A DNA stretch of 64,000 nucleotides from Streptomyces seoulensis (GTDB lineage: Bacteria > Actinomycetota > Actinomycetes > Streptomycetales > Streptomycetaceae): positions 6,262,001-6,326,000 of the forward strand of contig NZ_CP032229.1 of NCBI RefSeq assembly GCF_004328625.1, in the 5' to 3' direction. Each line of letters opens with the position of its first letter. The stretch's first letter is position 1. Made by a program: the position numbers and the translations under genes. This document shows, piece after piece, positions 25,057 to 34,909 of the stretch. Below the pieces are notes generated by a model. It saw only the letters and a list, made by a program, of their open reading frames with translations. It made no database searches and was not told where the DNA came from.

Positions 25057-25299
25057 CTACTCGACCGCGGGGTCCTCGTGGCTGTGCCGTACCGCTTCCT
25101 GGACCGACCGCTCCAGCGCGCCGCGGTCCTCACCGGTCTCCGCCGACCGGTCGGCGATGGCCGCGCACACGGCGTCGTACGCCGTGCGCCAGCGGCGCCG
25201 CTGGGCGTCGTACTCGCTCCCGGTGAGACCGGCCAGCTTGGCCCGCTCCACCTCGGCGGACCGTTCCAGGGCGATGAGGCTGTCGGGAATCTCTGCCAC
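25057..25299 (-). CDS. Small helical protein, predicted SigK target
   Basis: This 80-aa protein probably starts at the GTG at 25299. It is mostly helical and charged (SLIALERSAEVERAKLAGLTG followed by EYDAQRRRWR), with no cysteine or membrane segment, and looks like short soluble proteins common in streptomycetes. Function is unknown. A promoter-like site identical in plan to those of sigK and the fasciclin gene lies about 75 bp upstream and points into it, which suggests it belongs to the same regulon. No strong ribosome site is visible. Confidence 0.7.
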   Translation of the reverse strand: MAEIPDSLIALERSAEVERAKLAGLTGSEYDAQRRRWRTAYDAVCAAIADRSAETGEDRGALERSVQEAVRHSHEDPAVE

Positions 25300-25374
25300 G
25301 TGGGGATCGTAAGCGCGGCGGCCTGGGGGCGCCTCCCGGGTCCCGGAGGCGGGGTCTGGGGACGGGCGGCGATA

Positions 25375-25403
25375 GATCCGGTGCCGGAGGGCCGGCGGAT
25401 TGG
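25375..25403 (-). promoter_or_regulatory. Predicted SigK-type promoter of the 80-aa gene
   Basis: Read on the minus strand this is CCAATCC (25403-25397), 15 bp, then CCGGATC (25381-25375). The boxes and spacing equal those before sigK and the fasciclin gene except for the last base of the -10 box. It is back to back with the fasciclin promoter, 34 bp away. Confidence 0.7.
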
Positions 25404-25437
25404 TTTCGATCTTTCTTTCACCTGATCGGGGGAGTGA

Positions 25438-25466
25438 CCAATCCGCTTCGGCGGCAGGTCCGGATT
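25438..25466 (+). promoter_or_regulatory. Predicted SigK-type promoter of the fasciclin gene
   Basis: CCAATCC (25438-25444), a 15-bp spacer and CCGGATT (25460-25466) match the site before sigK in both boxes, the spacer length and the flanking GTGA. The predicted transcript would have a leader of about 220 nt. The rest of the gap 25300-25693 shows no gene; a 4-codon open frame at 25683 directly precedes the start. Confidence 0.75.
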
Positions 25467-25693
25467 CCCTGTGTGAGGGATGAAGAGCGGTACCAACGGT
25501 CGCCGGCCGCCCCGGCGCGCTTCGCACTGGGCGCGCCGCGCGGACCGCTCTTCGGAGGAGTCGGGGCGCCGACTGCCACGAGCCGCCCCGACTCCACCGG
25601 CGCCGCCCGCCTCCCCTCCGCCCCGGCTCAGTTTCACCCGTGACGACCATCGGCGCGGCATCCGTCGCGCCCCCATCAGGAGATGACGTACAG

Positions 25694-26344
25694 ATGATGA
25701 CCACCACCCGCACCCGCCGTGCCGCCGTCACCCTCGCCGCCGCCGCGGTGCTGCCCCTCGCGCTGAGCGCCTGCTCCTCCAGCGACTCCAAGGACAGCGG
25801 GAAGTCCGACTCCTCCGCGGCCGCCTCCTCGCCCATGGCGAGTCAGAGCATGGGTGCCGGCTCCATGGACCAGCCGTTCGGCCCGGCGTGTTCCTCGGTG
25901 CCGAAGAACGGTGCGGGTTCCTTCGACGGCATGTCCAAGGACCCGGTGGCCACCGCCGCCTCCAACAACCCGGCCCTGTCCACGCTGGTCGCGGCCGTGA
26001 AGAAGGCCGGTCTGGTCGACACGCTCAACAACGCCCAGAACATCACGGTGTTCGCGCCGACCAACGACGCCTTCAACAAGATCCCGAAGGCCACCCTGGA
26101 CAAGGTGCTCAACGACAAGGCCCAGCTCACCAAGATCCTGACCTACCACGTCGTCGGCAAGAAGCTGGCGCCGAAGGACCTGGAGAACGGCTCCTTCGAC
26201 ACCCTGGAGAAGTCGAAGGTCATGACCTCCGGCTCGGGCGAGTCGTACACCGTGAACGACTCCGCCAAGGTCGTCTGCGGCAACGTCAAGACCTCCAACG
26301 CCAACGTGTACATCATCGACACCGTCCTGATGCCCAAGAGCTGA
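25694..26344 (+). CDS. Fasciclin-domain lipoprotein (MPT70/MPT83-like)
   Basis: This 216-aa protein has a lipoprotein signal (LPLALSAC, lipid Cys27), a Ser/Met-rich linker and one fasciclin (FAS1) domain from about residue 75 to the end, with the H1-like ITVFAPTNDAFNKIP box and the later YHVVGKKL box. MPT70 and MPT83 of Mycobacterium tuberculosis have the same plan and are the chief targets of SigK. Here the gene is preceded by a SigK-type promoter and followed by a fatty-acid operon. It probably acts at the cell surface in adhesion or envelope protection. Confidence 0.93.
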   Translation: MMTTTRTRRAAVTLAAAAVLPLALSACSSSDSKDSGKSDSSAAASSPMASQSMGAGSMDQPFGPACSSVPKNGAGSFDGMSKDPVATAASNNPALSTLVAAVKKAGLVDTLNNAQNITVFAPTNDAFNKIPKATLDKVLNDKAQLTKILTYHVVGKKLAPKDLENGSFDTLEKSKVMTSGSGESYTVNDSAKVVCGNVKTSNANVYIIDTVLMPKS

Positions 26345-26357
26345 CCCCACCCCGGCA

Positions 26358-26395
26358 GCGCCCGCCCGCTCCGGGTCCCCGGAGCGGGCGGGCGC
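26358..26395 (+). terminator. Strong hairpin after the fasciclin gene
   Basis: A perfect 17-bp GC-rich inverted repeat (26358-26374 with 26379-26395) with a 4-nt loop starts 14 bp after the stop. It lies between the fasciclin gene and the FAD oxidoreductase gene. Confidence 0.8.
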
Positions 26396-26442
26396 GCAGC
26401 CCTTTCCACCCCTGACGCCCACTTTCTCGAAGGGAAAGCACG

Positions 26443-27699
26443 ATGCGCCGAACCGCCGTCGTGGGCAGCGGAGTCGCCGGACTCACCGCCGCCCATGTGC
26501 TGCGCCGGGCCCACCACGTCACCCTGTACGAGGCGGACGACCGCCTCGGCGGCCACGCCCACACGCACGACCTCATAGCCCCGGACGGCCGCATCCACCG
26601 GGTCGACTCCGGATTCATCGTGCACAACCGGCGCACCTACCCGAACCTGCTCCGCCTCTTCCGTGAACTCGGCGTCGCCACGCAGGAGTCGGAGATGAGC
26701 ATGTCGGTGCGGTGCGAGGGCTGCGGCCTGGAGTACGCCGGCGCGCGCGGCGCCCGCGGCCTGCTCGCCCAGCCCCGCAACCTGCTGCGCGGCTCCTACC
26801 TGCGCATGCTCGCCGAGGTGACCGCCTTCCACCGGGCCGCCCGCGCCCTGCTGGAGCACGGCGGCCACTCCACGATGACCCTGGGCGAGTTCATGGACCG
26901 GTCGGGCTTCTCCCCGTACTTCCGGGCCCACTTCATGACCCCGCTGGTCTCCTGCGTCTGGTCCTGCGACGCCGAGACCGCGCAGCACTACCCGGCCGCC
27001 TATCTCTTCCGGTTCCTCGACCACCACGGGATGCTCTCCGTCACCGGCTCACCCGTGTGGCGCACCGTGACCGGCGGCTCACGCAGCTATGTCGACCGGG
27101 TCGCCGCCGAGGTGCAGGACGTCCGCACCAGCACCCCGGTCCGCACCGTGCTGCGCCACGCCGACGGGGTCGACATCACCACGCGGGACGGCGTCACCGA
27201 GTCCTACGACCACGTCGTCGTCGCCGTCCACCCCGACCAGGCGCTCCGGCTGCTCGGTGACGCCTCCGCCGAGGAGAAGGAGGTGCTGGGCGCCTTCCGC
27301 TACTCCCGGAACACCACCCTGCTGCACACCGACGCCGCCCTGCTGCCCCGGGCCGCCGGCGCCCGCGCCTCCTGGAACTACCTCATGCCGAGTTGTTCGG
27401 CGGGCTCGGACCGGGTACGCGTCACCTACGACATGAACAGGCTCCAGCGTCTCGACGCCTCCCAGCGCTACCTCGTCACCCTCGGCGGCGAGGACCGCGT
27501 CGATCCCTCGCGCGTCCTCGCCCGGATGCGCTACGAACACCCCGTCTACACCCCCGAGTCGGTCGCGGCCCAGCAGCGGCTGCCCGCACTCGCCACCTCC
27601 GTCACCGCGTTCGCCGGCGCCTACCACGGCTGGGGGTTCCACGAGGACGGCTGCCGCAGCGGGGTCGCGGCCGCGAAGGCGCTGGGGGTGACCTGGTGA
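26443..27699 (+). CDS. FAD-dependent amine-oxidase-type oxidoreductase (Rv0449c-like)
   Basis: This 418-aa protein begins with a dinucleotide-binding motif (VVGSGVAGLTAA) followed by LYEADDRLGGHAHT, the usual flavin amine-oxidase start. Its neighbours are those of Rv0449c of M. tuberculosis. In related clusters, such flavoproteins act with a CFA-type methyltransferase to reduce a methylene lipid to a 10-methyl fatty acid or to make furan fatty acids. It is the first gene of a five-gene operon whose members all overlap by 4 bp. The ribosome site is AAGGGA. Confidence 0.9.
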   Translation: MRRTAVVGSGVAGLTAAHVLRRAHHVTLYEADDRLGGHAHTHDLIAPDGRIHRVDSGFIVHNRRTYPNLLRLFRELGVATQESEMSMSVRCEGCGLEYAGARGARGLLAQPRNLLRGSYLRMLAEVTAFHRAARALLEHGGHSTMTLGEFMDRSGFSPYFRAHFMTPLVSCVWSCDAETAQHYPAAYLFRFLDHHGMLSVTGSPVWRTVTGGSRSYVDRVAAEVQDVRTSTPVRTVLRHADGVDITTRDGVTESYDHVVVAVHPDQALRLLGDASAEEKEVLGAFRYSRNTTLLHTDAALLPRAAGARASWNYLMPSCSAGSDRVRVTYDMNRLQRLDASQRYLVTLGGEDRVDPSRVLARMRYEHPVYTPESVAAQQRLPALATSVTAFAGAYHGWGFHEDGCRSGVAAAKALGVTW

Positions 27700-28424
27700 G
27701 CACGGCCGCCCTGTATCCGTGCGTGGTCCGGCACACCCGCCGGGCCCCCGTCCACCACGCCCTGCGCCACCGCACCTACATGTGGCTCGTCGACACCGAC
27801 CACATACCCGAACTGCCGCTGCCGCTGCGCCCGTTGGCCCGCTTCCGGGCCCGCGACCACTTCACCGGCCGTGCCCCCTCGATCCGGGCCGCGCTCGACG
27901 GTTTCCTCGCCGAGCACGGCATCGACCTCGAAGGGGGCCGCGTCATGATGCTCACGCACGCGCGGGTCCTCGGTCACGTCTTCAACCCCCTCACCCTGTA
28001 CTGGTGCCACGACCCCGACGGCCGGCCCCGCTGCGTGGTGGCCGAGGTGCACAACACCTACGGCGGCCGCCACGCCTACCTGCTGCACACCGACCCGGCC
28101 GGCAGGGCGGACGTGGACAAGGAGTTCTACGTCTCGCCGTTCTATCCGGTGGACGGCCGCTACCACATGCGGCTCCCGCTGCCCGGCGACCGCCTCCAGC
28201 TCTCCCTGCGCCTGGACCGCCCCGGCAGCCCGCCCTTCACCGCGACCGTCCACGGCACCCGCCGCCCCGCCACGACGGGCGCGCTGCTGCGGCTCTCCCT
28301 GCGTCACCCCTGGTCGACCCTCGCGGTGTCGGCCGCCATCCGTTTCCACGGCATCCGCCTTTTCCTCAGGGGCCTGCCGGTGCAGCCGCGCCAGGTCCGC
28401 CACGACCCGGAGAACGCCACATGA
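27696..28424 (+). CDS. DUF1365 family protein (Rv0448c-like)
   Basis: This 242-aa protein starts at a GTG that overlaps the previous stop (GTGA). Family marks are YPCVVRHTRRAPVHHALRHR at the start, the HARVLGHVFNPLTLYWCHD block near residue 90 and the KEFYVSPFYPVDGRY block near residue 145. DUF1365 proteins occur almost always beside a flavin oxidoreductase and a cyclopropane-synthase-like methyltransferase, as here. The reaction is not known to me. Confidence 0.92.
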   Translation: MSTAALYPCVVRHTRRAPVHHALRHRTYMWLVDTDHIPELPLPLRPLARFRARDHFTGRAPSIRAALDGFLAEHGIDLEGGRVMMLTHARVLGHVFNPLTLYWCHDPDGRPRCVVAEVHNTYGGRHAYLLHTDPAGRADVDKEFYVSPFYPVDGRYHMRLPLPGDRLQLSLRLDRPGSPPFTATVHGTRRPATTGALLRLSLRHPWSTLAVSAAIRFHGIRLFLRGLPVQPRQVRHDPENAT

Positions 28425-29701
28425 CCACAGCCCACCCCCGCCCCACGACCAGGACCGCCGCGGCGGCGGTCCCGGCCCCGGTGGACGCCGGCCGCTGGCC
28501 CGACGTGGCCGCCGTGCCCAAGGCGTCCCGGCCGGTGCGTACCGTCGCCGCCGCCGTCGTACGGCACGCCCTGGGCCGGCTGCCGCTGTGGGTACGGTTC
28601 CCCGACGGCACCATCCTGGGCCAGGGCGGACCGCTCATAGAGGTGCGGGACCCGGACGCCTTCCACGCCCGCATCGGCACCACGGGCCTGATCGGCTTCG
28701 GCGAGTCGTACATGGCGGGGGAGTGGGACGCCCCCGACCTGGTCGGCGCGCTCACCGTGCTCGCCTCCCACGCCGCCGAACTCGTCCCCGCCCCGCTGCA
28801 ACGGCTGCGCCGCCTGTGGGCGCTGCGCCAGCCCGCCGCCCAACGGAACACCGCGACCGGCGCCCGCGACAACATCAGCCGCCACTACGACCTGTCCAAC
28901 GACCTCTTCGCGCTCTTCCTGGACGACACCCTCACCTACTCCTCCGCCGTCTTCCGCGGCTTCCCCGCCGAGCACGCCCTGCTTCCCGCCGCCCAGCACC
29001 GCAAGATCGACCGGCTGCTGGACCTCGCGGAGGTGGGCGAGGGCACCCGGCTGCTGGAGATCGGCACCGGCTGGGGCGAACTCGCGCTGCGCGCCGCCGC
29101 CCGGGGCGCCCACGTCACCTCGCTGACCCTCTCCCGCGAACAGCGCGACCTCGCCCGGCGCCGCGTCGCCGAGGCCGGCCTCGCCGACCGGGTCGCCATC
29201 GAACTGTGCGACTACCGCGAGGCCGAGGGCACCTACGACGCCATCGTCAGCGTGGAGATGATCGAGGCGGTCGGCGCCGAGTTCTGGCCCGTGTACTTCC
29301 GCACCCTCGACGAGCGCCTCGCCCCCGGCGGCCGCGTCGCCCTCCAGGCCATCACGATGCCGCACGACCGGATGCTCGCCTCCCGGGACACCCACACCTG
29401 GATCCAGAAGTACATCTTCCCCGGCGGCCTGCTGCCCTCCGTCGAGGCCGTCGACCAGACCGTGCGGGAGCACACCGGCCTCGCCGTCACCCGGCGCGAC
29501 GCCTTCGGCGCGCACTACGCCGAGACCCTCAGGCTGTGGCGCGAACGGTTCGCCGAGCGCGCCGAGGAGGTCGACGACCTCGGCTTCGACCACGTCTTCC
29601 GCCGCCTGTGGACCTTCTACCTCGCCTACTCCGAGGCCGGGTTCCGCTCCGGCTACCTCGATGTCCAGCAGTACCTGCTCACCAAGGAGCCCACTCGATG
29701 A
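28421..29701 (+). CDS. Cyclopropane-fatty-acid-synthase-type methyltransferase, first copy (UfaA1-like)
   Basis: This 426-aa protein is a SAM-dependent methyltransferase acting on phospholipid acyl chains. The SAM-binding motif is LEIGTGWGEL near residue 212, preceded by NISRHYDLSNDLFALFLDD, the lipid-site signature of CFA synthases. Mycobacterial UfaA1 (Rv0447c) sits in the same context. The start ATG overlaps the DUF1365 stop and its stop overlaps the next start. The product could be cyclopropane, 10-methyl or furan acids; the associated FAD enzyme favours the latter two. Confidence 0.93.
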   Translation: MTTAHPRPTTRTAAAAVPAPVDAGRWPDVAAVPKASRPVRTVAAAVVRHALGRLPLWVRFPDGTILGQGGPLIEVRDPDAFHARIGTTGLIGFGESYMAGEWDAPDLVGALTVLASHAAELVPAPLQRLRRLWALRQPAAQRNTATGARDNISRHYDLSNDLFALFLDDTLTYSSAVFRGFPAEHALLPAAQHRKIDRLLDLAEVGEGTRLLEIGTGWGELALRAAARGAHVTSLTLSREQRDLARRRVAEAGLADRVAIELCDYREAEGTYDAIVSVEMIEAVGAEFWPVYFRTLDERLAPGGRVALQAITMPHDRMLASRDTHTWIQKYIFPGGLLPSVEAVDQTVREHTGLAVTRRDAFGAHYAETLRLWRERFAERAEEVDDLGFDHVFRRLWTFYLAYSEAGFRSGYLDVQQYLLTKEPTR

Positions 29702-31011
29702 CCGACCTCCGCACCCCCGTCCGCACCGGCGCCGCGCACCGGCTGGCCGCGCTCGTCGAAGACGCGCTCGGGGTCCCGCTGCCGGTCCGGCTGCGCGCGT
29801 GGGACGGCAGCGAGACCGGCCCGTCGGGCACCCCCGTCGTCGTACTGCGCTCCCGCCGGGCGCTGCGCCGGCTGCTCTGGCAGCCCGGTGAACTCGGCCT
29901 CGCCCAGGCGTACATCACCGGCGAGCTGGACGTGGAGGGCGACCTCGCCGAGGGGCTGCGCACCGTCTGGGCCGCCGGCCGCGAACGCGGCGCCCACGCA
30001 CCGCGCCTGACCCTGGCCGACCGGGCCCGCGCGGTCGGGGAGGCCGCACGGCTCGGCGCGATCGGCCCCCGCCCGCCGGTGCCCGCCTCCCAGGCCCGGC
30101 TGCGCGGCGGCCGGCACACCAAGGCCCGCGACCGGGCCGCGATCAGCCACCACTACGACCTCTCCAACGACTTCTACCGCCTCCTCCTCGACGACACCAT
30201 GGCCTACTCCTGCGGCTACTGGACCGCCGAGGCCGGCGAGAACGCCGATCCCGCCGACGCCCAGCGGGCCAAGCTCGAGCTGATCTGCCGCAAGCTCGGC
30301 CTCACCGCCGGCTCCCGGCTGCTGGACATCGGCTGCGGCTGGGGCTCGCTCACGCTGTACGCCGCCGAACAGCACAAGGTCGAGGTCACCGCCGTCACCT
30401 TGGCCCGCGAGCAGGCCGCGCACGTCCGTGAGCAGGTCCGTGAACGCGGCCTGGAGGACCGGGTGGAGGTGGTCTGCCAGGACTACCGCGACATCAGCGG
30501 CTCCGGCTACGACGCGGTGTCCACCATCGAGATGGGCGAGCACGTCGGCGACGACGAGTACCCCGCCTTCGCCGCCGCCCTGCACCGCATGGTCCGCCCC
30601 GGCGGCCGGGTGATGGTCCAGCAGATGTCCCGGGGCGCCAACGCGCCCGGCGGCGGCGCGTTCATCGAGGCGTACATCGCGCCCGACATGCACATGCGGC
30701 CCCTCGGCGACACCGTCAACCTCCTGGAGGCGGCCGGTCTGGAGGTGCGGTCCACGGAGTCGATGCGCGAGCACTACGTACGCACCGTCGCCGCCTGGCA
30801 CGAGACCCTGGAGCGCCGCTGGGACGACGTCGTCGCCCTGGTCGGCACCGAGACCGCCCGCGTGTGGCGGCTGTACCTGGTCGGCGGGGCGCTCGCCTTC
30901 GAGGAGGGCCGGATGGGCGTCGACCAGATCCTCTCCGTGCGCAGGGACGGCGCGGGCGGCAGCGGGCTGGACCTCTCCGAGGCCGCCGACTGGTACCGGG
31001 ACCTGGTGTGA
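29698..31011 (+). CDS. Cyclopropane-fatty-acid-synthase-type methyltransferase, second copy
   Basis: This 437-aa protein is a second methyltransferase, only moderately similar to the one before it: the lipid signature is AISHHYDLSNDFYRLLLDD and the SAM motif LDIGCGWGSL, the latter closer to classical CFA synthases. M. tuberculosis has only one such gene in the corresponding operon, so this is an extra activity. The two might work on different bonds or successive steps. Both overlaps (4 bp) show strict co-translation. Confidence 0.93.
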   Translation: MTDLRTPVRTGAAHRLAALVEDALGVPLPVRLRAWDGSETGPSGTPVVVLRSRRALRRLLWQPGELGLAQAYITGELDVEGDLAEGLRTVWAAGRERGAHAPRLTLADRARAVGEAARLGAIGPRPPVPASQARLRGGRHTKARDRAAISHHYDLSNDFYRLLLDDTMAYSCGYWTAEAGENADPADAQRAKLELICRKLGLTAGSRLLDIGCGWGSLTLYAAEQHKVEVTAVTLAREQAAHVREQVRERGLEDRVEVVCQDYRDISGSGYDAVSTIEMGEHVGDDEYPAFAAALHRMVRPGGRVMVQQMSRGANAPGGGAFIEAYIAPDMHMRPLGDTVNLLEAAGLEVRSTESMREHYVRTVAAWHETLERRWDDVVALVGTETARVWRLYLVGGALAFEEGRMGVDQILSVRRDGAGGSGLDLSEAADWYRDLV

Positions 31012-31811
31012 GCGGCTTCGCCTGGGGCGCCTTCGCCGCCAACCTCGGCTGGGCGGCGCTCACCGCGCTCGGCGTCATGGTGATCACCTTCGCCGTCGCC
31101 GTGCGCAAGGGCATGCACCGGATCGTGGACATCGCCTGGGGCGCCGCGTTCGCCGCGGTCGCCCTGGCCACGTTCGGCGCGTCGGCGGGCGAGGGAGACC
31201 TCGCCCGCCGGGCCCTCGTCACCGCCCTCACCGTCGTCTGGGGTCTCCGGCTCGCCGTCCACATCGGGCGGCGCGGCCGGGGCCACGGCGAGGACCCGCG
31301 CTACGAGGACATGCTCGGCAAGGCGTCCGGCAACCGGAACCTGTACGCCTTCCGCATGATCTACCTGCTCCAGGGCGCCCTGGTCTGGCTGGTCTCGCTG
31401 CCGGTCCAGGCCGCCCAGTACGCGGGCGGACCCGTCTCGGTGCTCGCCTGGCTGGGGACGGCCCTGTGGGCGGTCGGCATCTTCTTCGAGGCCGTCGGCG
31501 ACGCCCAGAAGGCCCGCTTCAAGGCGGACCCGGCCAACAAGGGCCGCATCATGGACCGGGGCCTGTGGCGCTACACCCGGCACCCCAACTACTTCGGCGA
31601 CTTCTGCGTCTGGTGGGGCCTGTTCCTCATCGCCTGCGACGGCGGAGCCGCACCCGCCCTCGTCTCCTTCGTCTCGCCGCTGGTGATGAGCTATCTGCTG
31701 ATCAACGGCAGCGGCAAGCGGCTGCTGGAGCGCCGGATGTCCGGCCGCCCCGGCTGGGCGGAGTACGCCTCCCGCACCAGCGGCTTCTTCCCGCTGCCCC
31801 CGCGCGGCTGA
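31008..31811 (+). CDS. DUF1295 membrane protein (Rv0446c-like)
   Basis: This 267-aa protein has six or seven membrane segments and the C-terminal motif of the steroid-reductase/isoprenylcysteine-methyltransferase-like superfamily, RYTRHPNYFGDFCVWWG, followed by ERRMSGRPGWAEYASRTSGFFP. It starts at a GTG overlapping the methyltransferase stop and ends the operon at a strong terminator. A reductase acting on membrane lipids is a reasonable guess. Confidence 0.92.
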   Translation: MSGFAWGAFAANLGWAALTALGVMVITFAVAVRKGMHRIVDIAWGAAFAAVALATFGASAGEGDLARRALVTALTVVWGLRLAVHIGRRGRGHGEDPRYEDMLGKASGNRNLYAFRMIYLLQGALVWLVSLPVQAAQYAGGPVSVLAWLGTALWAVGIFFEAVGDAQKARFKADPANKGRIMDRGLWRYTRHPNYFGDFCVWWGLFLIACDGGAAPALVSFVSPLVMSYLLINGSGKRLLERRMSGRPGWAEYASRTSGFFPLPPRG

Positions 31812-31826
31812 CGCCGGACCACGAAA

Positions 31827-31860
31827 GGAGGGGAGCCCCGGACCACCGGGGCTCCCCTCC
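31827..31860. terminator. Bidirectional terminator
   Basis: A perfect 15-bp inverted repeat (31827-31841 with 31846-31860) with a 4-nt loop lies between the converging fatty-acid operon and the rskA gene. Confidence 0.85.
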
Positions 31861-31876
31861 TCTCGTGTCACTCCGC

Positions 31877-32620
31877 CTACGACGGCATGCTCAGCACCGT
31901 CACAGGGGCGCTGGTCGGCCTGGCCGAGCCGCCCGCCGGCTCCACCGTCACCCCGACCCCCGAGGCACCGTCCACCGTGCCCTTCATCAGCACCGACTGG
32001 CTCGCGCGTGCCGGGTCCATCAGGCCGGCGTCGCGCATCGTGCCGCCGTCGTCGAACCAGAGCTGGTACACCTTGCCCTTGGGCGGCTCGGGCATCCTCG
32101 ACGACACGAACACCGCCCGGTCCCGCTGAGCGGAGACCACCACCGTGCCGGTACCGCCCGCCACTCTCACCGTGCGGGACTTGGCGTCCGGCGCGGCCAG
32201 CACCCCGGCCAGGTCGGACGCCTGTCGCTCGGCCTGCGCCGCCCGCTGCTGGGCGTCCTGCGCGCGCTCCCACTGCCACGCCGCCGTACCGCCGAACACG
32301 GCGGCCGCCGCGACGCACGCGGCCAGCGCCCAGCGGGCCGGGGCCGTGCCCCTGCTGCGGCGCACCCGCTCCACCGGGGTGGTGCCGGGCGTCAGCTGGC
32401 GCACCGAGCCGACGCGGTGCAGCACCTCCTCCCGCATCGCCGGGCGCACCGGCACGGACGCGGCCAGCGCCAGCCGGGCCGCGGCCGCCTCGAACTCCGC
32501 CACCTCGCGGGCGCAGGACGGGCAGCCGGAGAGGTGACGCTCGAAGTCGGCACGCTCGTCGTCGGGCAGCGCGTGCAGCGCGTAGGCACCCGTCAGCGTG
32601 TGCGGATCGGTCATGGTCAC
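31877..32620 (-). CDS. rskA: Anti-sigma-K factor RskA
   Basis: This 247-aa membrane protein has a cytoplasmic zinc anti-sigma domain with HLSGCPSC (His29, Cys33, Cys36), one membrane span near residues 93-113 (WALAACVAAAAVFGGTAAW) and an extracytoplasmic RskA domain (about 120-247, with VYQLWFDDGGTMRDAGLM). RskA holds SigK inactive until it is cut by regulated proteolysis. The GTG at 32620 overlaps the sigK stop; an ATG two codons later is equally possible. The topology is the standard one for the family. Confidence 0.95.
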   Translation of the reverse strand: MTMTDPHTLTGAYALHALPDDERADFERHLSGCPSCAREVAEFEAAAARLALAASVPVRPAMREEVLHRVGSVRQLTPGTTPVERVRRSRGTAPARWALAACVAAAAVFGGTAAWQWERAQDAQQRAAQAERQASDLAGVLAAPDAKSRTVRVAGGTGTVVVSAQRDRAVFVSSRMPEPPKGKVYQLWFDDGGTMRDAGLMDPARASQSVLMKGTVDGASGVGVTVEPAGGSARPTSAPVTVLSMPS

Positions 32621-33201
32621 GCGGTCACCCCCAGGCAGTCGCGCAGCCGGATGAGGCCGTCGCGCAGTCGAGTCTTGACGGTGCCGAGCGGCAGGGCGAG
32701 CGCCTCCGCGACTTCCCGGTAGGTCAGCCCCCGGTAGTAGGCGAGCGTCACCGACTGCCGCTGGAGGTCGGTCAGCGTGCGCAGACAGCGCCGCACCTGC
32801 TCCTGCTCCAGCCGGGACTCCACCTGTTCGGTCACCTCGTCGTACTCCGGCGTACGGTCCAGCAGCGCCGCCTTGGTGTCACGGGCGGCGGCCGCCTCCA
32901 CCGAGCGGACGCGGTCCACCGCGCGCCGGTGCGCGAGCGTCAGAATCCAGTTGATCGCGGTACCCCGGTCGGCCCGGTAGCGCGGAGCGGTGCGCCAGAC
33001 CTCCACCAGGACGTCCTGGGCCACCTCCTCCGACTGGGCGACGTCGCGCAGCACCGCCCGGACGACCCCGAGCACCGGACCGGCCACGGTGTCGTAGACC
33101 GAGGCGAACGCCTCCTGATCACCGAGGGCCACCTCGTGCAGCAACTGCTGCAAGTCCGGTTCCGCTGCCGGGTTCCTGCCGATGTAGACGGCTTCCTTCA
33201 C
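32617..33201 (-). CDS. sigK: ECF sigma factor SigK
   Basis: This 194-aa ECF sigma factor has region 2 (about residues 25-95, with SEEVAQDVLVEVWRTAPRY) and region 4 (about 130-185, with LAYYRGLTYREVAEALALPLGTVKTRLRDGL). I chose the GTG at 33201 because GGAGAGGA lies 7-8 bp upstream; an in-frame ATG at 33243 has no ribosome site. The gene is followed directly by rskA, as in mycobacteria. Its own promoter carries the same boxes as two other sites in the window, which implies autoregulation. Confidence 0.95.
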   Translation of the reverse strand: MKEAVYIGRNPAAEPDLQQLLHEVALGDQEAFASVYDTVAGPVLGVVRAVLRDVAQSEEVAQDVLVEVWRTAPRYRADRGTAINWILTLAHRRAVDRVRSVEAAAARDTKAALLDRTPEYDEVTEQVESRLEQEQVRRCLRTLTDLQRQSVTLAYYRGLTYREVAEALALPLGTVKTRLRDGLIRLRDCLGVTA

Positions 33202-33268
33202 AACTGTCCTCTCCAACGTTGCGCCGGGACGGGGCTCCCGCATGGTGTCGTGGGAGCCGTCCCCGCGT

Positions 33269-33297
33269 AATCCGGGGCCACGGCGGCCGCGGATTGG
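33269..33297 (-). promoter_or_regulatory. Predicted autoregulated SigK promoter
   Basis: On the minus strand: GTGA, CCAATCC (33297-33291), 15-bp spacer, CCGGATT (33275-33269). A start of transcription about 7 bp further on would leave about 60 nt before the chosen GTG start. The boxes resemble the mycobacterial SigK pattern CCATCC-N17-CCGAAT. Confidence 0.75.
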
Positions 33298-33682: not shown

Positions 33683-34301
33683 CGCCCGGCCCTTCCTCGA
33701 ATCCGGCCGGATCGTCCACCAGGTCGACGATCCGGATGTCCACCGACGCGGGCCGCAGCCCCAGCCGCAGCCGGGCCGCACCGGCCACCCGGTGCCGCAC
33801 CTCCTCGGCCACCTCCTCCAGCGGCACGCCCAGCGGGGCGTGCACCTCCAGGCGTACCGTCACCTCGCCCCGGCCCGCGTCCGGCGGGGTGACCCGGCAG
33901 GAACCCGCGCGGACCCCGGCGACCGTCTCGGCGGCGGCCCGCAGGGTGCGCGCGGCGACCGCCTCCATCACCCACAGATCCTCGTCGTCGTCCCCGAGCG
34001 GCACCGGGCGGCCGGGCCGCAGCTCCATCCGGACCACGTCCATCACGCGCCGGGTCAGCGCCGAGGGGTCGTAGCCGGCCTCCGCCGGATCGGTCTCCTC
34101 GCGCAGCTCCCGTACGGTCGACTCCAGCAGCGTCAGTTCCCGTACCGCGTCCTTGCAGTACGGGCAGGTGGCCCGGTGCGGGTCGGGGTCGGCCTGCTCC
34201 CAGCCGTCCCAGACCCCGGACAGCAGCCGCCCGCAGGCGAGGCGCTCGTCGTCGCCGTCGGGCCCGGTGTACCGGTCGGGCGGGTCGGTGTGCGTGGTCA
34301 T
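33675..34301 (-). CDS. Zinc anti-sigma-motif protein fused to an Asp23/Gls24-type domain
   Basis: This 208-aa protein starts at an ATG overlapping the ECF sigma stop. The N-terminal ~60 residues hold HRATCPYC (His42, Cys46, Cys49), the HX3CX2C zinc anti-sigma motif, with Cys23 as a possible fourth ligand. The C-terminal ~120 residues are Asp23/Gls24-like (GEVTVRLEVHAPLGVPLEEVAEEVR). There is no membrane span. Translational coupling to a sigma gene plus this motif suggests it binds and controls that sigma factor; automated annotation would probably call it only Asp23. Confidence 0.85.
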   Translation of the reverse strand: MTTHTDPPDRYTGPDGDDERLACGRLLSGVWDGWEQADPDPHRATCPYCKDAVRELTLLESTVRELREETDPAEAGYDPSALTRRVMDVVRMELRPGRPVPLGDDDEDLWVMEAVAARTLRAAAETVAGVRAGSCRVTPPDAGRGEVTVRLEVHAPLGVPLEEVAEEVRHRVAGAARLRLGLRPASVDIRIVDLVDDPAGFEEGPGDD

Positions 34302-34909
34302 CGCCAGGCCCCCAGTGCTCGTGTCAGACAGCGTCGTGCGCGGAAGACGCGGGCGCGCACCGCCTCCTGGCTGATGCCGACCGTATCCGCGATGAACTCG
34401 TAGGAATGTCCGTCCAGTTCGCGCAGCACCCAGCAGGCCCGCTGCTCCGCCGAAAGGTCGTCCAGCGCCCGGCGCATCCCGCGCACCGCGTCCCGCGCCT
34501 CGGTGACCCGCTCGGGGGAGTCGTGCTCCGGTGCCGCGAACTCCCCGGCCGCCTCCAGCGACGTCACCGGCCGGCGGGCCCTCAGGACGTTCAGGCAGCG
34601 GTTGGTGACGATGCGGTACATCCAGGTGCCGAAGGACGACTGGCGCCGGAACTCCGGCAGCCGGCGCCAGGCGCTGATGAAGGCGTCCTGCACCGCGTCC
34701 TCCGCCTCGGCGCTGTCGCCCAGCAGCCGGGTGGCGAGGCCGACCAGCGCCGGGGCGTGCTCGCGCACCAGCACGGCGAACGCCTCCTCGTCGCCCTCGG
34801 CCGCGCGCACGGACAGCAGGCCGTCGTCCGGGGGCGCCGGTCGTGGCGGACTGTCGTCGGGCGCGCGTTCCGCTTCCGGATACGCGAACTGTCTGCGGAC
34901 CCCCGGCAC
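34298..34909 (-). CDS. ECF sigma factor of the Asp23 locus
   Basis: This 203-aa sigma-70 family protein starts at a GTG with GGAGAGGAG 6-7 bp upstream. Region 2 lies at about residues 45-110 (AEDAVQDAFISAWRRLPEF, GTWMYRIVTNRCLN) and region 4 at about 140-195 (CWVLRELDGHSYEFIADTVGISQEAVRARVFRAR). It heads a three-gene operon with two Asp23-type genes and lies divergent to a second Asp23 operon. A GGAAT-N18-CGTC sequence upstream may be its own target promoter. Confidence 0.92.
   Translation of the reverse strand: MPGVRRQFAYPEAERAPDDSPPRPAPPDDGLLSVRAAEGDEEAFAVLVREHAPALVGLATRLLGDSAEAEDAVQDAFISAWRRLPEFRRQSSFGTWMYRIVTNRCLNVLRARRPVTSLEAAGEFAAPEHDSPERVTEARDAVRGMRRALDDLSAEQRACWVLRELDGHSYEFIADTVGISQEAVRARVFRARRCLTRALGAWR

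Follow-up and report, generated by a model that had tools for sequence, protein, structure and literature searches.

Our analysis of a 64,000-nucleotide stretch of Streptomyces seoulensis DNA (hereafter the window) identified a locus that very probably represents the Streptomyces branch of the actinobacterial SigK-RskA (ECF19) regulon. This reading follows from an exact triple of promoter sites, a sharp peak at a 15-bp spacer (N15) between the -35 and -10 boxes, the gene families found behind such sites, a start-codon ruler in one target class, and the published targets of SigK. At the level of sequence, we regard promoter conservation, gene content, the ruler and a gene remnant as established, and the core of an earlier sequence-only reading, namely that a SigK/RskA pair goes with similar promoters ahead of sigK and of a fasciclin gene, is borne out by the retention of pair and promoters in relatives.

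In the proposed mechanism, RskA, a membrane anti-sigma factor, would hold SigK, which would be freed on a signal that is presumably envelope- or redox-related. SigK and RNA polymerase would then start transcription at CCMATCC-N15-NCGRAY promoters, probably about 7-8 nt after the -10 box, so that SigK would amplify itself and switch on a fasciclin lipoprotein, a fatty-acid-modifying operon and a divergent 80-aa gene. In relatives, promoters of this kind also precede genes for a sulfite-oxidase-like molybdoenzyme and a DipZ-like protein, and in some cases the gene of a further ECF sigma factor.

Genes of the sigK-rskA locus

The features of the locus are collected in Table 1. By its sequence, the window sigma factor is SigK of the ECF19 type, with RskA adjoining. 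Its product passes the NCBIfam SigK model NF007228 (283.5 bits; cut-off 226), and its best PDB match is 4nqw (1.4e-44). Both redox cysteines of SigK, given as C133/C183 for M. tuberculosis in a passage of PMC7509140, align with cysteines of 4nqw and are present in the window and in most relatives listed. The sigK start codon is uncertain, and conservation in relatives starts near residue 15. RskA carries HTLTGAYALHAL and PDDERADFERHL, which match the AS19-1 helix motifs taken for comparison from PMC7406223.

Table 1. Features of the SigK-RskA locus (window coordinates).
Feature	Position	Strand	Basis
SigK-type promoter of sigK-rskA	33270..33297	-	Exact CCAATCC-N15-CCGGAT
SigK-type promoter of the fasciclin gene and probably of the lipid operon	25438..25465	+	Exact match
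SigK-type promoter facing the 80-aa gene	25376..25403	-	Exact match
Gap between the two divergent -35 boxes, 34 bp	25404..25437		Conserved gap length
Conserved element TTCACCTGATCGGGGGA	25417..25433	+	GATC at 25424-25427, 10 bp before the fasciclin-side -35 box
Decayed sulfite-oxidase-like remnant in the fasciclin leader	25473..25643	+	GTG 7 nt after the -10 box
80-aa gene	25057..25299	-	ORF, found in 4 relatives besides the window
Fasciclin-domain lipoprotein, MPT70-like	25694..26344	+	PF02469 1.7e-35, lipobox LSAC
Lipid operon (FAD amine oxidase, DUF1365, two CMAS methyltransferases, DUF1295)	26443..31811	+	Pfam
rskA, anti-sigma factor	31877..32620	-	PF10099 2e-30, PF22618 3.9e-9
sigK, ECF sigma factor	32617..33243	-	NCBIfam SigK model, PDB 4nqw

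The fasciclin protein matches MPT70 (1nyo) at 1.2e-35 and human TGFBI better, at 3e-39. The genes of the lipid operon overlap one after another, and the operon is probably co-transcribed from the fasciclin promoter. Presumably the same gene order occurs in M. tuberculosis Rv0449c-Rv0444c, and two other loci (L160 and L172) hold such a lipid operon with sigK.

Pfam and NCBIfam searches returned no match for the 80-aa gene, which has no known link to SigK, a point that counts against the SigK-RskA regulon reading. Directly 5' of its GTG (about 25300-25316, minus strand), GCTTACGATCCCCAC is kept or nearly so in all five relatives shown, and is possibly a second, leaderless promoter.

Near sigK lies another ECF sigma gene (34298-34909, minus strand), and no SigK site was found upstream of it in the window. 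In other Streptomyces, relatives of this gene (11 rows at 72-80% identity, of which two represent one locus) follow the divergent partner of the SigK-type sulfite-oxidase promoter, which suggests a sigma cascade.

Promoter boxes and their relation to SigK clades

A pattern search on both strands recovered three exact CCAATCC-N15-CCGGAT sites, as the sequence-only reading had described them before sigK, the fasciclin gene and the 80-aa gene. The GTGA that it had noticed as shared by two of the three is present 5' of the -35 box at the fasciclin and sigK sites, with GAAA at the 80-aa gene site; the base 3' of CCGGAT is T, T and C, respectively.

These boxes had also been proposed to be a lineage-specific version of the mycobacterial ones. 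This stood for one -10 base and for the preference for A at the third -35 base, and fell for the 15-bp spacing, which is not lineage-specific because it is also kept in loci outside Streptomyces. Regions were fetched round 40 of the SigK-like places listed, 35 outside Streptomyces and 5 within the genus. The 35 outside loci gave 32 sites at N15, 5 at N16 and 0-4 at other spacings, an N15 site being present in 23 of them and absent from 12. In one locus (L175), SigK matches M. tuberculosis SigK (4nqw) at 1.5e-76, and CCCATCC-N15-CCGAAT precedes the operon. A lineage-specific spacing is ruled out by these 32 sites and by L175.

The N15 sites outside Streptomyces read NCGAA[TC] 31 times and NCGGA[TC] once, and NCGAA[TC] occurs 7 times in the five more distant Streptomyces loci. 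The window has CCGGAT in place of the CCGAAT box of other genera. Sorted by locus, the -10 type was G-only in 70, A-only in 34 and mixed in 6, with 20 lacking a site, and the third -35 base was A or C in a ratio of 137:11 in G-type loci and 23:24 in A-type loci. On the sequences compared, CGGAT is thus the box of one clade of Streptomyces SigKs, and CGAAT/C that of other genera and of the remaining Streptomyces SigKs. In a sigma tree built after thinning 129 sigma rows to 101, of which 25 are without a single -10 type, two changes of the -10 base suffice, the tree being weakly resolved (13 of 98 inner branches starred). At SigK residue 98, Asn occurs in 69 of the 70 G-type loci and in 3 of the 34 A-type loci; a role of this residue as the determinant of the -10 G is not supported, with only 1-2 independent pairs in this weakly resolved tree.

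The genome contains three SigK-like genes, located in the window, at 1.157 Mb (66% identical) and at 5.82 Mb (50% identical), and the 5.82-Mb locus has its own RskA and promoters that combine CCAATCC with ACGGAT and with CCGGAT. The sites could therefore be real but read mainly or jointly by one of these other factors. We consider this unlikely, as the site before sigK and the sites of its neighbours are exact at the window and the -10 base follows the SigK clade in the proportions given above. We infer instead that the window SigK recognizes the sites.

The 5.82-Mb locus (L182, G000:C1 5814000-5832000) is a second SigK/RskA locus, with a sulfite-oxidase-like gene and a fasciclin gene behind a divergent pair. 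This sulfite-oxidase-like/fasciclin unit is intact, and its fasciclin is 84% identical to that of the window. The locus has two N15 sites and one N16 site, contrary to the earlier suggestion that the three window promoters define the regulon; judged by sequence, they are part of a larger one. The third SigK-like factor (L181, G000:C1 1148000-1166000), that of 66% identity, has an RskA-like neighbour, and its stretch holds no generalized promoter site. Elsewhere, CCAATCC-N15-CCGAAT (L183 5654-5681, minus strand; G000:C1:5679653-5679680) lies 104 nt before the gene of a 217-aa zf-HC2 (anti-sigma-like) protein.

A divergent promoter pair with a GATC element

Across 30 divergent pairs of SigK-type sites, the -35 boxes lay 34 bp apart in 22 cases and 35 bp apart in 4, with gaps of 23, 41, 47 and 56 bp found once each; no convergent pairs were found within 120 bp. 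In addition, a TTCAYYYGATC-like element stands at a fixed place just upstream of 38 of 263 sites. Among G-type promoters, it accompanies those of sulfite-oxidase (27/44), fasciclin (8/14), lipid-operon (2/24) and ECF (0/69) genes, and it was found in 0 of 41 A-type promoters. At four fasciclin promoters (L039, L044, L047 and L192) the element is kept and the partner box is not recognizable. The genome itself has 11 near-matches to the element, 2 of them at SigK promoters, and 1 match to the reversed control, which is biased since CTAG is rare. The arms are only slightly dyad-symmetric (score 3.29; 200 shuffles gave a mean of 2.96 and a maximum of 3.27), and the sites are related by descent.

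The GATC element may serve as an operator or as an upstream contact for polymerase. It resembles half of a PhoP box, but no second direct repeat of that box was seen at the element, and we do not identify it with a known box. Tentatively, a second regulator might bind the dyad round TTCAYYYGATCNGGTGA at Streptomyces fasciclin and sulfite-oxidase promoters, coupling the two divergent SigK promoters. With similar reserve, the dyad of such a regulator would be placed 10-11 bp upstream of the SigK -35 box, inside the fixed 34-bp divergent pair.

A further alternative is that the divergent pair is run chiefly by a regulator at the GATC element, with SigK as one of its polymerases, or that the element is an upstream RNA-polymerase contact. 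The fixed place of the element, the fixed 34-bp pair and the retention at four promoters without a recognizable partner box would fit this alternative, which we nevertheless hold to be distinctly improbable: the G-type ECF and A-type promoters show that SigK promoters exist without the element, and arm symmetry is barely above that of shuffled partners among related sites. The fixed divergent pair and the GATC element turn co-regulation into a concrete, testable question.

Conservation and spacing of the promoters

The expected number of chance occurrences in the window was 0.01, even with N13-N19 allowed (100 shuffles, 0 with at least three). A scan of the 6.43-Mb genome (two contigs), as had been called for, showed no chance-frequency spread of the pattern: the exact copies number 3, all inside the window, and one mismatch gave 5 sites. 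With up to two mismatches there were 119 matches and 32 for the reversed pattern; this control is biased, as it holds TAG, which is rare in high-GC coding DNA, and the spacing scan is therefore the fair control. CCMATCC-N15-NCGRAY had 8 matches (3 in the window, 2 at the 5.82-Mb SigK locus and 3 elsewhere), its reversed control 1.

We then compared the window with a conservation set of 80 SigK loci, nearly all from Streptomyces. Upstream of sigK, a site with at most one mismatch was found in 61 of 81 regions (60 at N15, 1 at N14), a level reached by 0.25% of shuffled regions; the other 20 had no close match. A site is present upstream of the lipid operon in 18 of 34 relatives and directly upstream of the fasciclin gene in 7 of 45, many relatives' fasciclin genes sitting instead behind a sulfite-oxidase-like gene. 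Upstream of the 80-aa gene, 2 of 5 relatives have an exact site, and the other 3 have two mismatches but keep N15. Internal operon genes, used as control, gave 1 site in 225 at the same threshold of one mismatch (rskA 0/81, DUF1365 0/35, cmas1 1/36, cmas2 0/30, DUF1295 0/43). In the spacing scan (8-24, generalized boxes), the 80 loci gave 150 sites at N15, 8 at N16 and 0-4 at each other spacing. Despite the abundance of two-mismatch matches in the genome, the probability that the three sites are a coincidence is negligible: shuffles and spacing scan rule out a chance origin, the N15 peak is sharp within and outside Streptomyces, and in relatives the spacers diverge and the boxes are held.

Exact CCAATCC-N15-CCGGAT occurs in only 25 of 121 Streptomyces genomes (48 sites), partly since TCGGAT or ACGGAT stands in many sigK promoters. 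This low share weighs against the SigK-RskA reading, as do the sigK regions without a close match, the outside loci that lack an N15 site and the two further SigK-like factors of the genome. Some loci are present twice, each time under another id (L074/L198; L077 and part of G095). Identical stretches were counted once for sites, pairs, gene content and elements, and duplicates were kept in the upstream counts (61/81 and the like). One Streptomyces genome (G059, L185-L191) has nine exact sites over several contigs, which precede fasciclin, lipid-operon and DipZ-like genes, an enlarged regulon.

Regulon content and the remnant of a gene

The deduplicated sites numbered 264, of which 234 had an ORF behind them and 30 had none. 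The genes behind the 234 comprised SigK (80), sulfite-oxidase-like (57 rows), lipid-operon (28) and fasciclin (20) genes, and another ECF factor (7), the rest falling into smaller groups that include a DipZ-like protein of 601 aa (DsbD and thioredoxin-like domains). The sulfite-oxidase-like protein has PF00174 in the one tested. In 51 of the 57 rows, including CGAAT-type genera, the start codon of its gene lies exactly 7 nt past the -10 box; of the others, three are second matches before the same gene and three lie at 6 or 8 nt. This ruler is best read as the mark of a leaderless mRNA, and would predict the start point, in agreement with the distance of about 7 bp given in the sequence-only reading.

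The fasciclin leader of the window contains 56 codons that resemble the sulfite-oxidase-like protein, first its start and further on a later part of it (blastp against 51 such proteins, 1.1e-6, low-complexity filter and composition correction off). Other fasciclin leaders match the start (L095, L034 and L035; 2.7e-5 to 7.3e-10) or match the later part best (L031, L039 and L047; 8.7e-7, 9.1e-10 and 6.7e-5), and those of L044 and L192 gave nothing significant by blastp against the sulfite-oxidase-like proteins. The window fasciclin promoter appears to descend from a sulfite-oxidase/fasciclin unit in which the first gene has decayed. Inverted repeats are visible by eye in the fasciclin leader (25482-25600).

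Comparison with known SigK systems

Passages of PMC9861118 and PMC5547695 name mpt83, dipZ, mpt70 and rv0449c as mycobacterial SigK targets, and a passage of PMC7509140 describes SigK sites as conserved and cross-recognized in Actinobacteria; passages of all three cite Veyrier et al. (2008) for the mycobacterial SigK-RskA regulon. As far as these passages go, the Streptomyces system shares the SigK/RskA pair and a target list with fasciclin, DipZ and a lipid locus (rv0449c), and its N15 promoters are also seen in the mycobacterium-like locus L175. It differs in CCGGAT versus CCGAAT, in a window sigK-rskA that is convergent to the lipid operon rather than inside it, and in the Streptomyces sulfite-oxidase-like gene, GATC element and fixed 34-bp divergent pair. 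The SigK-RskA system is of a kind already known; what our sequence comparison adds is the promoter layout and a further conserved DNA element.

According to passages of PMC5547695 and PMC9861118, both the signal and the role of mycobacterial SigK regulons are still obscure. A harmless Streptomyces that shares the sigma/anti-sigma pair and the fasciclin and lipid genes would be a safe organism in which to seek both; its promoters follow a sharp rule (N15, with the start codon 7 nt past the -10 box), and its list of targets is wider. Among the literature matches listed, no paper dealt with a SigK-RskA regulon in Streptomyces and none described the promoter architecture. In Streptomyces, SigK is already the name of a SigB-type factor, SCO6520, which is not an ECF factor according to passages of PMC8346170 and PMC9205884; on that account, S. 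coelicolor SigK and the window SigK have only the name in common. Finally, a passage of PMC7509140 places an mpt83-sigK-rskA cassette even in Yersinia, which, as described there, likewise has a fasciclin gene with a SigK site beside sigK-rskA, in a different gene order.
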